Source: Arthrobacter ulcerisalmonis
GTDB lineage: Bacteria; Actinomycetota; Actinomycetes; Actinomycetales; Micrococcaceae
Direction of reading: 5' to 3'
NCBI RefSeq assembly: GCF_900609065.1
Contig: NZ_UXAU01000013.1
Coordinates: forward strand, 1-64,000
DNA length: 64,000 nucleotides
A program made the position numbers and the translations under genes. Shown in pieces: positions 32,401 to 37,086 of the stretch. Every line of letters starts with the position of its first letter. Within the stretch, counting starts at the first letter, position 1. The notes below the pieces were generated by a model. That model was not told the origin of the DNA. It saw only the letters and a program-made list of their open reading frames with translations, and did not search any database.

Positions 32401-34698
32401 CTACTTTCCGAAGCGGCGCAGCCTGAGCGAATTCGCCACCACCAGCACGGAACTGGCGGCCATGGCTGCGCCGGCAAGCATCGGGTTCAGCAGGCCCAGT
32501 GCCGCCACAGGGATGCCCACCGCGTTGTAGAAGAAGGCCCAAAATAGGTTGGTTTTGATGGTGCCGAGGGTCTTGCGGGAGAGCTGGATGGCCTGCACCA
32601 CCTGGGCGAGGTCGCTGCCCATCACGGTCAGGTCCGCGGCTTCGATGGCCACATCAGTCCCGGATCCCATCGCAATCCCCAGGTCGGCCTGGGCCAGCGC
32701 CGCAGCGTCATTGACGCCGTCGCCGGCCATGGCAACTGTTGCCCCGCCAGCCTGCAGTTCCTTGACGGCGGCCACTTTGCCCTCGGGGGTCACGCCAGCG
32801 AACACGTCCTCCGGGGCGATCCCGACGGCGGCAGCCACCCGGGCGGCGACGGCGGCGTTGTCGCCGGTCAATAGCATGGGCCGCAGGCCCAGTTCCCGCA
32901 GCGCGGCAATGGCGGACGCCGAGCCGTCCTTGACGGAGTCGCGCAGGCTGATAATGCCTGCAGCGGCACCGTCCACCGCGACCCAGATCGCCGTGGCACC
33001 GCCGGCTTCCGCTGCCGCCAGCTCGTCCTTCTGCGCTGCGGACAGCGGCACGCCCGCTTGCACCAGCCAGCCGGTCCGGCCGGCAGCCACGCGCCGGCCG
33101 GCAACGGTTCCCGTGACGCCGCCGCCGGGCTCGGAACGGAAGTCGACGACGTAGGGGAGGGCGCCGTCGTCGTCCGCGGCACCTTGCGCGATTCCGGCCG
33201 CGGCGATGGCCCGGGCCACAGGGTGTTCGGAGGCGACCTCAACGGCCGCTGCCAGCCGCAGCACCTCCGCTTCGGTGAAGCCGTCGAAAGCGCGGGTGGC
33301 GTCCACGGCAAGGCTCCCGGTGGTGACGGTTCCGGTTTTGTCGAGCAGGATGGTGTCCACCGTGCGGGTGTCTTCCAGGACCTGCGGGCCTTTGATCAGG
33401 ATTCCCAGTTGCGCCCCGCGGCCTGTTCCGGTGAGGAGGCCAACGGGGGTGGCCAGGCCCAATGCGCAGGGGCAGGCGATGACCAGGACGGCGACGGCGG
33501 CCGTGAACGCCGCGCGCAGGTCCGCCGGTGCAATCTCGGGCGCCGCAGCGAGGAGCCACAGTCCAAAGGTGGCCACGGCGATGACCAGCACCACGGGGAC
33601 GAACACGGCGCTGACGCGGTCCGCGAGCCGAGCGATGGGGGCCTTGCCGGTCTGTGCCTGCGATACGAGGCGCGCCATGTGCGCCAGCGTGGTCTCGGCG
33701 CCAACGCGGGTGGCCCGGACCAGGAGTCGGCCCGCGGTGTTGATGGTGGCGCCCGTGACGGTGCTGCCCGGGCCGACCTCAACCGGCACGGATTCGCCGG
33801 TCACCAGCGAGGTATCCACGGCTGACGCACCGTCAACCACCTCGCCGTCGGTGGCAATTTTCTCGCCGGGGCGGACCACCAGCACATCCCCTGCCTGCAG
33901 CTGATCTGCGGGGATACCCACTTCGGCGCCGGCGCGAAGCACGGTGGCGTCCTTGGCGCCGAGGTTCAGCAGGGCTTGGAGGGCGTCGCCGGCCTTCTGC
34001 TTGGCGTTCGCCTCGAGGTACCGGCCCAGTAGGAGGAAGGTGGTGACCACGGCGGCCACCTCAAAGTACAGTCCGCCCGCTGCCATGTCGGTCATGGACT
34101 CCATGCCCGGATGCGCCGTAAGGGCTGGATTGGCCACGAGTTGCCAGGCGGAAAAAAGGTACGCCGCGGTCACGCCGATGGAAACCAGGGTGTCCATGGT
34201 GGAGGCCAGGTGCCTGGCATTGACGGCGGCCGCGCGGTGGAAGGGCCATGCCGCCCACGTGACCACCGGCAGCGCCAGGACCGCCGCAACCCAGCCCCAG
34301 TTCGGGAACTGCAAGGCCGGAAGCATGGAGATGAGGAAGACGGGGAGGGTGAGGGCGGTCGCCAGGAGCAGGCGGGGCCGGAGCGTCGCCGCAGTTCCAC
34401 CGTGGGAGAGGTGATCGTGCGCGTCGTCGTGGTCGGGTTCTGGGTGGTGCCCGACGTCGGTCCGCACCGTGGCGGTATAGCCCGCCGAGGCGACTGATGC
34501 CAACAACTGCTGGTCCGTGATGTCCGGTGGCACGCTCACCTGGGCGGACTCCAGGGGAAGGTTGACGGCTGCACTCACGCCGGCCAGCCTGCCCAATTTC
34601 TTCTCGACCCGCATGACGCAGGAGGCGCAGGTCATGCCTTGGATATTCAGGTTTACCTCGCGATTTTGGGCGCGCGGCATCAGCTCATTCGGATTCAT
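32401..34698 (-). CDS. copA: Copper-translocating P1B-type ATPase
   Basis: A 765-residue P-type ATPase: heavy-metal domain with GMTCASC (Cys 24 and 27), a His/Asp-rich stretch (HHPEPDHDDAHDHLSH, 84-99), actuator TGES at 300-303, CPC at 409-411 in the sixth helix, the phosphorylated Asp in DKTGT (453-457) and the EHP motif at 491-493. CPC and its neighbours mark Cu(I) export. The His-rich linker is notable. Start codon follows AGGAGGGTGAG. Co-directional with the CopZ-like and csoR genes downstream of the CsoR operators. Confidence 0.95.
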   Translation of the reverse strand: MNPNELMPRAQNREVNLNIQGMTCASCVMRVEKKLGRLAGVSAAVNLPLESAQVSVPPDITDQQLLASVASAGYTATVRTDVGHHPEPDHDDAHDHLSHGGTAATLRPRLLLATALTLPVFLISMLPALQFPNWGWVAAVLALPVVTWAAWPFHRAAAVNARHLASTMDTLVSIGVTAAYLFSAWQLVANPALTAHPGMESMTDMAAGGLYFEVAAVVTTFLLLGRYLEANAKQKAGDALQALLNLGAKDATVLRAGAEVGIPADQLQAGDVLVVRPGEKIATDGEVVDGASAVDTSLVTGESVPVEVGPGSTVTGATINTAGRLLVRATRVGAETTLAHMARLVSQAQTGKAPIARLADRVSAVFVPVVLVIAVATFGLWLLAAAPEIAPADLRAAFTAAVAVLVIACPCALGLATPVGLLTGTGRGAQLGILIKGPQVLEDTRTVDTILLDKTGTVTTGSLAVDATRAFDGFTEAEVLRLAAAVEVASEHPVARAIAAAGIAQGAADDDGALPYVVDFRSEPGGGVTGTVAGRRVAAGRTGWLVQAGVPLSAAQKDELAAAEAGGATAIWVAVDGAAAGIISLRDSVKDGSASAIAALRELGLRPMLLTGDNAAVAARVAAAVGIAPEDVFAGVTPEGKVAAVKELQAGGATVAMAGDGVNDAAALAQADLGIAMGSGTDVAIEAADLTVMGSDLAQVVQAIQLSRKTLGTIKTNLFWAFFYNAVGIPVAALGLLNPMLAGAAMAASSVLVVANSLRLRRFGK

Positions 34699-34724
34699 CT
34701 CACCCTCCTGGGTGGTTGGTACTC

Positions 34725-34964
34725 TTACGCGTTGTTGGCGACGACCATATAGCCGGCCTCGGCGACAGCTTCACCAATGTCAGCGGGCGAGAGCGGCCCG
34801 GCGGAGGTGATGGTGACGGTGGAGGCGCCATCGGCATTGAGGTTCACGGCGACGCCTTCAACTCCTGCCAGGGACTCAAGTTCCTCGCTGACGGCGGAGA
34901 CGCAGTGGTTGCAGGTCATGCCGGACACGCTGACGGTGGTGATGACGGGGTTGGTGGTGCTCAT
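34725..34964 (-). CDS. copZ: CopZ-like copper chaperone
   Basis: A 79-residue HMA-domain protein with SGMTCNHCVSAVSEELESLA, the MxCxxC copper site, followed by the conserved GVEGVAVNLNADGAS core. It would deliver Cu(I) to CopA, encoded 26 nt downstream, and to CsoR. AAAGGAAC precedes the ATG. Almost certainly in one transcript with csoR and copA. Confidence 0.93.
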   Translation of the reverse strand: MSTTNPVITTVSVSGMTCNHCVSAVSEELESLAGVEGVAVNLNADGASTVTITSAGPLSPADIGEAVAEAGYMVVANNA

Positions 34965-35024
34965 GATCGGGTTCCTTTTCGTCAGGCCGGGGGCCGGTTG
35001 GTGGATGCGGGGGATGGGGTGGCG

Positions 35025-35360
35025 TCAGCGCAGGAGCCGGCCGATGGCGTCCGTGGCTTCCTTGACCTTGCTGTCAATGGCCGCCGAGCGGAGGGTGGGG
35101 TCTGGTTCTGCGGCGGCACCCACGACGCAGTGGCCGATGTGTTCCTCCACCAGGCCCAGGCTGACGGCGTGCAGGGCCTTGGTGACTGCGGCTACCTGGG
35201 TGAGGATGTCGATGCAGTACTTGTCTTCATCCACCATGCGGGCAATGCCCCGAACCTGGCCCTCGATGCGCTTGAGGCGCTTCAGGTAGGCGTCTTTGTT
35301 ATCGGAGTAGCCATGTTTTGCCTCGGCCTGCTCCAGTGGGGTTGCGTCGATCTGCTCCAT
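35025..35360 (-). CDS. csoR: CsoR family copper-sensing repressor
   Basis: A 111-residue protein: YLKRLKRIEGQVRGIARMVD, KYCIDILTQVAAVTKALHAV and LVEEHIGHCVV contain the Cys-His-Cys Cu(I) ligands of CsoR. The four-helix fold releases DNA when copper binds. Two matching operators are present 12-50 nt upstream of the start, so it likely represses its own copper operon. Confidence 0.93.
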   Translation of the reverse strand: MEQIDATPLEQAEAKHGYSDNKDAYLKRLKRIEGQVRGIARMVDEDKYCIDILTQVAAVTKALHAVSLGLVEEHIGHCVVGAAAEPDPTLRSAAIDSKVKEATDAIGRLLR

Positions 35361-35371
35361 GCTCCCAAGCT

Positions 35372-35388
35372 ATACCCCCTTGGGGTAT
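35372..35388. promoter_or_regulatory. CsoR operator 1
   Basis: ATACCCC-CTT-GGGGTAT, a perfect 7-bp palindrome with 3-nt centre, matches the G-tract/C-tract operators bound by CsoR proteins. It lies in the csoR promoter. Confidence 0.85.
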
Positions 35389-35396
35389 CCGTCAAG

Positions 35397-35411
35397 TACC
35401 CCCTGGGGGTA
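35397..35411. promoter_or_regulatory. CsoR operator 2
   Basis: TACCCC-CTG-GGGGTA, a second palindrome of the same type, centred 24 bp from the first, which suggests two repressor tetramers on one face of the promoter. Confidence 0.8.
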
Positions 35412-35439
35412 TCTTTGGGTGGAAAGTGGACACAAAAAA

Positions 35440-35478
35440 GCTCCAGAGTGCGTTATTGGGGGATACGCACTCTGGAGC
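35440..35478 (-). terminator. Strong terminator-shaped hairpin facing csoR
   Basis: A perfect 14-bp stem (GCTCCAGAGTGCGT with 35465-35478), 11-nt loop, and six T residues after it on the minus strand (complement of 35434-35439). It is a textbook intrinsic terminator on the minus strand, but no gene is visible upstream of it there. It may end an unannotated short RNA, or insulate the csoR promoter. Confidence 0.75.
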
Positions 35479-35629: not shown

Positions 35630-36736
35630 ATGGGAGGTATGGCGACTCCAGAGAGTTATCTATTGGCAGTAGGCACCAAAAAAGGCCTGTGGCTGGCTAC
35701 CAGCGCCGACCGCAACGAGTGGACCTGGACCGGCCCGCACTTCTTCATGACGGAGATTCCCAGCATCGGAATCGATACCCGCGCCGGCCGGACCAGGATC
35801 CTGGTGGGCATCCGGAGCGAGCATTGGGGTGCCACCGTGGCGCACTCGGATGACCTGGGGCGGACCTGGTCCGAACCCGAGGCGGGTGCCATCACCTTCC
35901 CGGGGGACACCGGCGTCGCGCTTGAACGAATCTGGCAGATCTACCCGGACGCAGAGCACCGGCCGGGGGTGGTGTGGGCGGGTGCCGAACCCATCTCGGT
36001 CTGGAAATCGACGGACGGCGGCGAGCATTTCGAGCTGAACCGTGGCCTCTGGGACCATCCGCACCGCAGCGAGTGGGGCGAGGGTTACGGCGGTGGCGCA
36101 GCGCATTCGATTGTGGCCCAACGCCACGATGACACCGTGCACATCGCCATGAGTACGGGCGGCGTCTATCGCTCGCCCGACGGCGGGACCTCTTGGGAAC
36201 CGCGAAACTCAGGCATTTCCGCGTACTTCATGCCGGATCCGAACCCCGAATTTGGCCAGTGCGTGCACAAAATAGCCGGGGACGCCGCCGTCGACGGCCG
36301 CCTCTACGCGCAAAACCACCACGGCGTGTACCGTACGGACGACAACGGCGAGAACTGGATCTCCATTGCCGATGGCCTGCCCGCGGACTTTGGCTTCGTC
36401 ATGCTCACGCACCAGCAACGCGGCGGCACAGCCTGGGTGATCCCGTTGAAGGCCGACGGCGAACGCATCCCGCCGGACGCTGAACTCGCCGTGCACAGGA
36501 CGGACGATGCTGGCGGCACCTGGCAGAAGTTACGCACCGGATTGCCGGACGGTGAGTTCAACAGCATCCTGCGCGACGCCGCCAGTGTGGACGCCGCAGA
36601 GCCCGCCGGCGTGTATTTTGGCACGCGCGGCGGGGCGGTCTACGCCAGTGCCGACGAGGGGGAGACGTTTACCGAGGTGGCGGCGCATCTTCCCGATGTC
36701 TTGTGTGTCAGGGCTGCAGTGGTGGCGGGTGGCTGA
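35630..36736 (+). CDS. BNR/Asp-box beta-propeller protein, sialidase-like fold
   Basis: A 368-residue soluble protein with six Asp-box motifs: SDDLGRTW (73-80), STDGGEHF (127-134), SPDGGTSW (182-189), TDDNGENW (236-243), TDDAGGTW (291-298) and SADEGETF (340-347). The spacing of about 50 residues gives six or seven propeller blades, as in sialidases and VPS10 domains. No signal peptide and no clear sialidase Arg triad or FRIP start, so enzyme activity is uncertain. ATG 35630 is supported by GGAGG at 35615-35619. Its end overlaps the next gene by 8 nt. Confidence 0.8.
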   Translation: MGGMATPESYLLAVGTKKGLWLATSADRNEWTWTGPHFFMTEIPSIGIDTRAGRTRILVGIRSEHWGATVAHSDDLGRTWSEPEAGAITFPGDTGVALERIWQIYPDAEHRPGVVWAGAEPISVWKSTDGGEHFELNRGLWDHPHRSEWGEGYGGGAAHSIVAQRHDDTVHIAMSTGGVYRSPDGGTSWEPRNSGISAYFMPDPNPEFGQCVHKIAGDAAVDGRLYAQNHHGVYRTDDNGENWISIADGLPADFGFVMLTHQQRGGTAWVIPLKADGERIPPDAELAVHRTDDAGGTWQKLRTGLPDGEFNSILRDAASVDAAEPAGVYFGTRGGAVYASADEGETFTEVAAHLPDVLCVRAAVVAGG

Positions 36737-37016
36737 GATTTCGGTGGTGCTGCCGAGCGTCCTGCAGCCCCTGGCCGGCGGGCAGTCGGTGCTGACTGCG
36801 CCCACAGTGGGGGCCATGACGGTGGCCGAGCTCCTTGATGCGATAACGGCCGACTTCGCCATTCTGGGTCGGCGAATTCGCGATGAAACGGGTGCGTTGC
36901 GCCGTTTTGTCAACGTGTACGTGGATGGCGACGAGGTGCGCCAGCTGAACGGACTGGCCACCCAAGTCCGGCCTGGCCAGGAGATCCTGGTGATCCAGTC
37001 CGTGGCGGGTGGGTAG
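36729..37016 (+). CDS. MoaD/ThiS ubiquitin-like protein
   Basis: A 95-residue beta-grasp protein with VAELLDAITADFAILGRRI, RRFVNVYVDGDEVRQLNGLA and the ending QEILVIQSVAGG. The C-terminal Gly-Gly is the activation site that ThiF/MoeB-type E1 enzymes adenylate. The GTG start lies inside the propeller gene's end, giving an 8-nt overlap and likely translational coupling. No E1, sulfurtransferase or molybdopterin gene is adjacent, so it may be a sulfur carrier or modifier linked to the propeller. Confidence 0.85.
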   Translation: MAEISVVLPSVLQPLAGGQSVLTAPTVGAMTVAELLDAITADFAILGRRIRDETGALRRFVNVYVDGDEVRQLNGLATQVRPGQEILVIQSVAGG

Positions 37017-37036
37017 CCGCTCTTGGCCGGTGCCGT

Positions 37037-37064
37037 GCGGGCAGTCCTTACTGACTGCGCCCGC
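37037..37064. terminator. Hairpin after the MoaD-like gene
   Basis: GCGGGC and AGTC (37037-37046) pair with GACT and GCCCGC (37053-37064) with a 2-nt bulge. It lies between convergent genes; no T-run. Confidence 0.45.
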
Positions 37065-37086
37065 ATGGCGGCGAACTCTTGAACGC

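Follow-up and report, generated by a model that had tools for sequence, protein, structure and literature searches.

The window analyzed here, a 64,000-nucleotide stretch of DNA, contains two adjoining genes on its forward strand: an Asp-box β-propeller gene (35630-36736; ATG at 35630 or 35639, stop codon at 36734-36736; 365-368 amino acids) and a gene for a MoaD/ThiS-type ubiquitin-like protein (Ubl; 36729-37016; GTG start, stop codon at 37014-37016; 95 amino acids) whose C-terminus reads SVAGG. Both genes are real, and, as the first-pass annotation of positions 35630-37016 had described, they share 8 nt, GTGGCTGA (36729-36736, + strand), which hold the Ubl start and the propeller stop. The propeller reading frame has a CGGAGG sequence ~10 nt 5′ of the ATG at 35630, and the overlap suggests that translation of the propeller and of the Ubl is coupled. 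An 11-nt sequence, GTGGCGGGTGG, closes both genes (36722-36732 and 37002-37012), so that the propeller also ends in VAGG; this ending is probably incidental, because the propeller tail varies among relatives. A 40-nt imperfect direct repeat (78%) is present in the 5′ part of the Ubl gene (36767-36806) and just past the Ubl stop (37026-37065), with a local alignment score of 45, whereas none of 2973 random windows scored above 28; judged by eye, the 3′ copy could fold into a hairpin.

The neighbors of the pair are copper genes, an aminotransferase gene, and a DNA ligase gene. The copper genes form a divergent operon on the − strand (32401-35440) that encodes a P-type ATPase, an HMA chaperone, and a CsoR-type repressor, and just upstream of it are two ATACCCCC/GGGGTAT-type palindromes (about 35372-35413) that resemble CsoR operators. 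The stretch that separates the propeller gene from the copper promoter region holds a perfect 14-bp inverted repeat (35440-35478) with arms 11 nt apart, preceded by an A-run and followed by a T-run, which resembles a bidirectional terminator.

The propeller matches the BNR family in Pfam (PF02012, E 8.7e-10) and contains six canonical Asp boxes (35846-36670, + strand) at residues 70-77, 124-131, 179-186, 233-240, 288-295, and 337-344, which are evident both in the sequence and in the strand layout of the model; a seventh box, at about residues 22-28, is degenerate. In the AlphaFold2 model (pLDDT 95, pTM 0.93) the protein folds into seven blades that track the Asp-box rhythm, and a C-terminal strand (residues 354-363) completes blade 1 as read from the strand order. 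The closest structure is 3b7f, with a TM-score of 0.91 to the model and an E-value of 7e-66 to the sequence; by full-length sequence and fold similarity, the propeller is a member of the 3b7f family. The earlier description of a sialidase-like propeller with six Asp boxes thus stands at the level of the repeat, with six canonical boxes, but not at the level of the fold, which has seven blades rather than six and is nearest to 3b7f. No sialidase is present among the 50 best PDB structural matches to the model, within which 3b7f stands alone at a TM-score of 0.91, and no signal peptide is evident in the protein.

The Ubl matches the ThiS family in Pfam (PF02597, E 1.3e-9, 38.9 bits, where the cut-off is 22.5). 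It shows three features of a MoaD/ThiS carrier, namely a β-grasp ThiS-family sequence, a C-terminal Gly-Gly, and an E1 enzyme in the same genome. Its terminal Gly-Gly, encoded at 37008-37013 (+ strand), is the putative site of adenylation and thiocarboxylation and is invariant in the set of 27 Ubls and 12 fusions described below. The nearest solved relatives are CysO of Mycobacterium tuberculosis (E 1.6e-12) and the ThiS/MoaD protein 4n6e_B, from an entry that we take to be the BexX-CysO complex of Amycolatopsis. Against the NCBIfam model for SAMP1 (NF041918) the Ubl scores 49.3 bits, below the 60-bit cut-off.

The first-pass annotation had noted that no E1 is local, and none was found beside the pair; only one clear E1 is encoded in the source genome, a MoeZ-type ThiF-rhodanese protein of 400 residues, which lies in the thiamin cluster (G000:C55:126726). 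The same genome encodes three ThiS-family proteins, which are ThiS itself, the propeller-paired Ubl, and a MoaD-like protein on another contig, and contains no match to PF14464 (JAMM). In the genomes tested for an E1, one is nearly always present (64 of 66), and the two misses are fragmented assemblies whose genus-mates have one. There is precedent for an E1 that serves several carriers in trans: MoeZR is a shared, trans-acting E1 for MoaD and CysO (PMC3227635).

The propeller is present in all 37 genomes of the genus that were searched, source genome included. At 104 close-relative loci, a count that includes some species twice since it draws on two collections, a Ubl gene follows the propeller gene, usually no more than 12 nt from its stop and at 24 loci with the −8 overlap seen here, and the Ubl ends in VAGG or IAGG in every case. 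In one Ubl of the Arthrobacter group an apparent frameshift splits the gene, which reflects either a sequencing error or decay, and a contig labeled as an Acidobacteria metagenome-assembled genome carries a propeller 74% identical to that of the window and is likely a mis-binned actinobacterial contig. We then considered an even draw of 396 Actinomycetota genomes, 97 of which contain a propeller match. At 68 of the 83 full-length propeller loci examined, a Ubl is adjacent or fused: downstream at 43, upstream at 13, and fused N-terminally in one frame at 12. The 15 loci that lack it belong to one Streptomyces-like genus (11) and one family (f61; 4), and a search of the neighborhoods of these solo propellers found no small, GG-ending, Ubl-like frame. 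On a tree of the 97 proteins, the arrangement changed at least seven times, presence or absence at least four times, and fusion at least twice. The Ubl profile matches 234 of the 396 genomes, a figure that includes CysO and other carriers and so does not give a clean count of Ubls without a propeller.

The pair extends to Pseudomonadota, for which the evidence consists of plasmid and megaplasmid records. When the Pseudomonas aeruginosa Ubl was compared with 72,556 plasmid records, 12 matched, and in 11 of these the Ubl is beside a propeller (Pseudomonas, Burkholderia, Paraburkholderia, Cupriavidus, Mitsuaria, and Arthrobacter); two Rhodobacterales plasmids carry a propeller without a Ubl. No third gene (E1, JAMM, cysM, or transporter) is conserved by the pair, and the other neighbor clusters are antisense or local. 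The pair is kept through about 70% sequence divergence, and the wide survey and the tree rule out a chance neighborhood. The propeller and the Ubl are one functional unit, for which the strongest evidence is that the pairing survives both relocation and fusion. These results agree with the first-pass statement that the pair occurs in other actinobacteria and proteobacteria and with its proposal of an undescribed two-component unit; a search of open-licence papers found none that describes the pair or gives it a function, and a 2006 survey of prokaryotic Ubls contains no mention of a partner of the propeller, BNR, or sialidase type (PMC1779556). The same annotation had named frequent loss of the partner gene or of the terminal Gly-Gly among relatives as grounds against the proposal, and for the most part neither is seen: in the loci sampled, the partner is missing only from the two actinobacterial lineages and the Rhodobacterales plasmids above, and Gly-Gly is lost in one Ubl, from Nonomuraea.

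In 27 Ubls that are 22-47% identical to the one in the window, only R58, G94, and G95 are invariant. All 12 Ubl-propeller fusions keep an SGG sequence, while the 2-25 residues that follow it vary; because Gly-Gly is invariant in these fusions as its surroundings drift, the comparison argues that Gly-Gly itself is under selection. Among the sampled Ubls that are not fused, most stop exactly at Gly-Gly, 12 continue for 1-5 residues, one (L178) runs on for longer, and one (L055) is truncated where its contig ends.

In the propeller, 11 polar residues outside the Asp boxes, in loops and in the A and B strands, are at least 90% conserved (T13, K15, W99, W146, H156, S172, H210, Q225, H227, R276, and R312). 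By strand topology, all 11 lie on the face formed by the B-C and D-A loops, and the A-B loops, on the opposite face, contain none of them. The codons of the pocket residues span 35681-36574 (+ strand), in the order K15 (35681), W99, W146, H156 (36104), S172, C208 (36260), H210 (36266), Q225, H227 (36317), R276, and R312 (36572), and nearly all of the 11 conserved residues are also found in 3b7f. H156, H210, and H227 are invariant or nearly so, and beside them lies C208, where the proteobacterial type has Asp instead. The pocket is kept in propellers that have no adjoining Ubl, in the Streptomyces type, Rhodobacterales, and family f61; because it persists in these lineages, we infer that the propeller serves a conserved function in its own right and can work without a neighboring Ubl, perhaps with another carrier. 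Propellers that have the full pocket and no adjacent Ubl offer natural material for finding out whether a carrier serves them and, if so, which one.

The fusions bear on how tail and pocket might meet. When a natural fusion was modeled, two confident domains were obtained with no confident arrangement between them, the pTM of 0.76 being about what the propeller alone accounts for, and the linker that contains Gly-Gly was disordered. In fusions with short linkers, Gly-Gly would lie by the N-terminal strand at the face opposite the pocket; because the strand order places the propeller N-terminus at that face, such a fusion, if uncut, would be unable to place its own Gly-Gly in the pocket. A JAMM gene is present in all 24 genomes that have a fused or GG-extended Ubl, and the genomes without JAMM all carry a Ubl that ends exactly at Gly-Gly; this co-occurrence is suggestive only, as it is confounded by phylogeny, the JAMM-less genomes tested all being of one order. 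Cleavage of this kind is known elsewhere: MoaX of M. tuberculosis needs a cut after Gly-Gly (Gly82) to work (PMC4326299), and the JAMM protease DRJAMM cuts the Deinococcus DRMoaD-MoaE fusion (PMC8832034).

Most likely, the pair represents a previously undescribed form of sulfur-transfer enzyme in the MoaD/ThiS style. We propose that the Ubl is a dedicated carrier of the MoaD/ThiS/CysO type whose Gly-Gly would be activated in trans by the MoeZ-type E1 of the cell, most likely to a thiocarboxylate, and that the propeller is its partner enzyme, as MoaE is for MoaD. The charged tail would enter the Lys/Trp/His/Arg pocket on one face of the propeller, where sulfur would be passed to a small acceptor; a fused polypeptide would, like MoaX, probably be cleaved behind its Gly-Gly, whether by a protease of the JAMM type or by another. 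Beyond the observed pairing, Gly-Gly conservation, one-face pocket, and E1 elsewhere in the genome, this MoaD-MoaE-like model calls for thiocarboxylate formation, docking, sulfur transfer, and fusion processing, and we put its probability as a whole at roughly 45%. Weighing against it are the fusion model with its lack of confident docking, the retention of the pocket in lineages that have no adjacent Ubl, the Nonomuraea Ubl without Gly-Gly, the phylogenetic confounding of the JAMM co-occurrence, and the finding that no conserved third gene points to a pathway. The more general statement, that the two proteins make up a widespread enzyme in which a trans-charged Ubl gives sulfur or another group into the pocket of a seven-bladed propeller, with fusions processed after Gly-Gly, is offered a shade more tentatively still.

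Other roles for the Ubl can be weighed against this model on the same evidence. The Ubl could be a non-catalytic subunit that docks on the propeller and aids its folding, stability, or targeting, with Gly-Gly kept for binding. Linkers of only 2-4 residues in some fusions would suit such a subunit, as would the 12 free Ubls with 1-5 residues past Gly-Gly, an extension that would block E1 activation unless trimmed, and the Nonomuraea Ubl that has lost it. However, the invariance of Gly-Gly amid drifting residues and the E1 in nearly every genome argue against a docking subunit, and the fusion model gave no confident docking; we consider this role unlikely, though not negligible. Protein conjugation, in which the Ubl would be joined through Gly-Gly to lysines of the propeller or of other proteins and the propeller would act as target, ligase-like adaptor, or regulator, draws on the same terminal Gly-Gly and E1 and on the sub-threshold SAMP1 score; SAMP-type Ubls carry out sulfur transfer as well as conjugation. 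No gene for an E2, an E3, a JAMM protein, or any other conjugation component is linked to the pair, the source genome, with no JAMM match, has no obvious deconjugase, and what is conserved on the propeller is a one-face pocket rather than a lysine patch, so that conjugation appears improbable.

The three histidines raise a further possibility, namely that a charged Ubl is used for different chemistry: hydrolysis of the tail, loading of an amino acid in the manner of CysO-cysteine, or sulfuration of a metal center at H156, H210, and H227. These residues, with Cys208 (or Asp) alongside, resemble a metal or catalytic site, and CysO, the nearest Ubl, is a carrier for cysteine synthesis; but C208 is exchanged for Asp in one subfamily and no cysteine-synthase-like gene is linked to the pair, and we regard this as an outside chance. 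Current annotations, "exo-alpha-sialidase" and "MoaD/ThiS family protein", would instead make the propeller a conventional exo-sialidase or glycosidase that happens to lie next to an unrelated MoaD/ThiS gene. We reject sialidase (GH33) or glycosidase identity on the seven blades, the absence of sialidases from the best structural matches, and the lack of a signal peptide, and the conserved pairing, the fusions, and the standing of 3b7f as sole match at a TM-score of 0.91 make this reading highly improbable.

If the MoaD-MoaE-like model is correct, many mis-annotated genes, including those called "exo-alpha-sialidase", would gain a testable function, as would a partner that is conserved across Actinomycetota and in records from P. 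aeruginosa, Burkholderia, and Cupriavidus and that has a solved yet functionless structure in 3b7f. To our knowledge, few dedicated acceptor enzymes for Ubl sulfur carriers have been found, each of which defined a biosynthetic pathway, and we know of no β-propeller that accepts sulfur from a Ubl. The fusions with an internal Gly-Gly open two tests, one of prokaryotic Ubl fusion cleavage and one of what the charged carrier delivers; processed Ubl-propeller fusions would parallel, in prokaryotes, the precursors in which ubiquitin is made as a fusion.

Comparison with known systems places each half of the pair near a solved protein. 3b7f (Reut_B4987/YP_299179.1) is a seven-bladed Asp-box propeller of unknown function from Ralstonia eutropha, and a review of Asp-box proteins lists its function as "Not known" (PMC2716378). 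It shares K15, W146, H156, S172, H210, Q225, H227, R276, and R312 with the propeller of the window but has Asp at the position of C208 (DPH) and a different residue aligned with W99. On the Ubl side, CysO (3dwg) of the M. tuberculosis CysO-CysM-Mec cysteine route is the closest solved protein, with the same length and a VAGG tail. That route differs in that the partner here is a propeller and no third gene is conserved; a Mec-type JAMM hydrolase was not found in the source genome, nor was cysM linkage at the pair, and by these features and the 60-bit cut-off the CysO-CysM-Mec system and curated SAMP1 are ruled out. A role in bacterial anti-phage defense by Ubls finds no support: the PADLOC models gave no more than a partial match of 15.5 bits between SspC and the Ubl, and no E1, E2, or JAMM is linked. 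MoaD-MoaE and MoaX resemble the pair in having a GG-tailed Ubl, a dedicated partner gene, and natural fusions with an internal Gly-Gly, and differ in that the partner here is a β-propeller and not a MoaE fold, and that fusion cleavage is here putative; molybdopterin synthase itself is ruled out by the propeller partner, and the MoaD-like protein of the genome lies on another contig. BexX is a ThiG-like barrel that uses a shared carrier charged by a shared E1. BexX-CysO is like the pair as proposed here in that a carrier charged by a shared E1 serves an unusual partner enzyme, and is unlike it in combining a ThiG-like barrel with a shared carrier, whereas the carrier here is a dedicated one.
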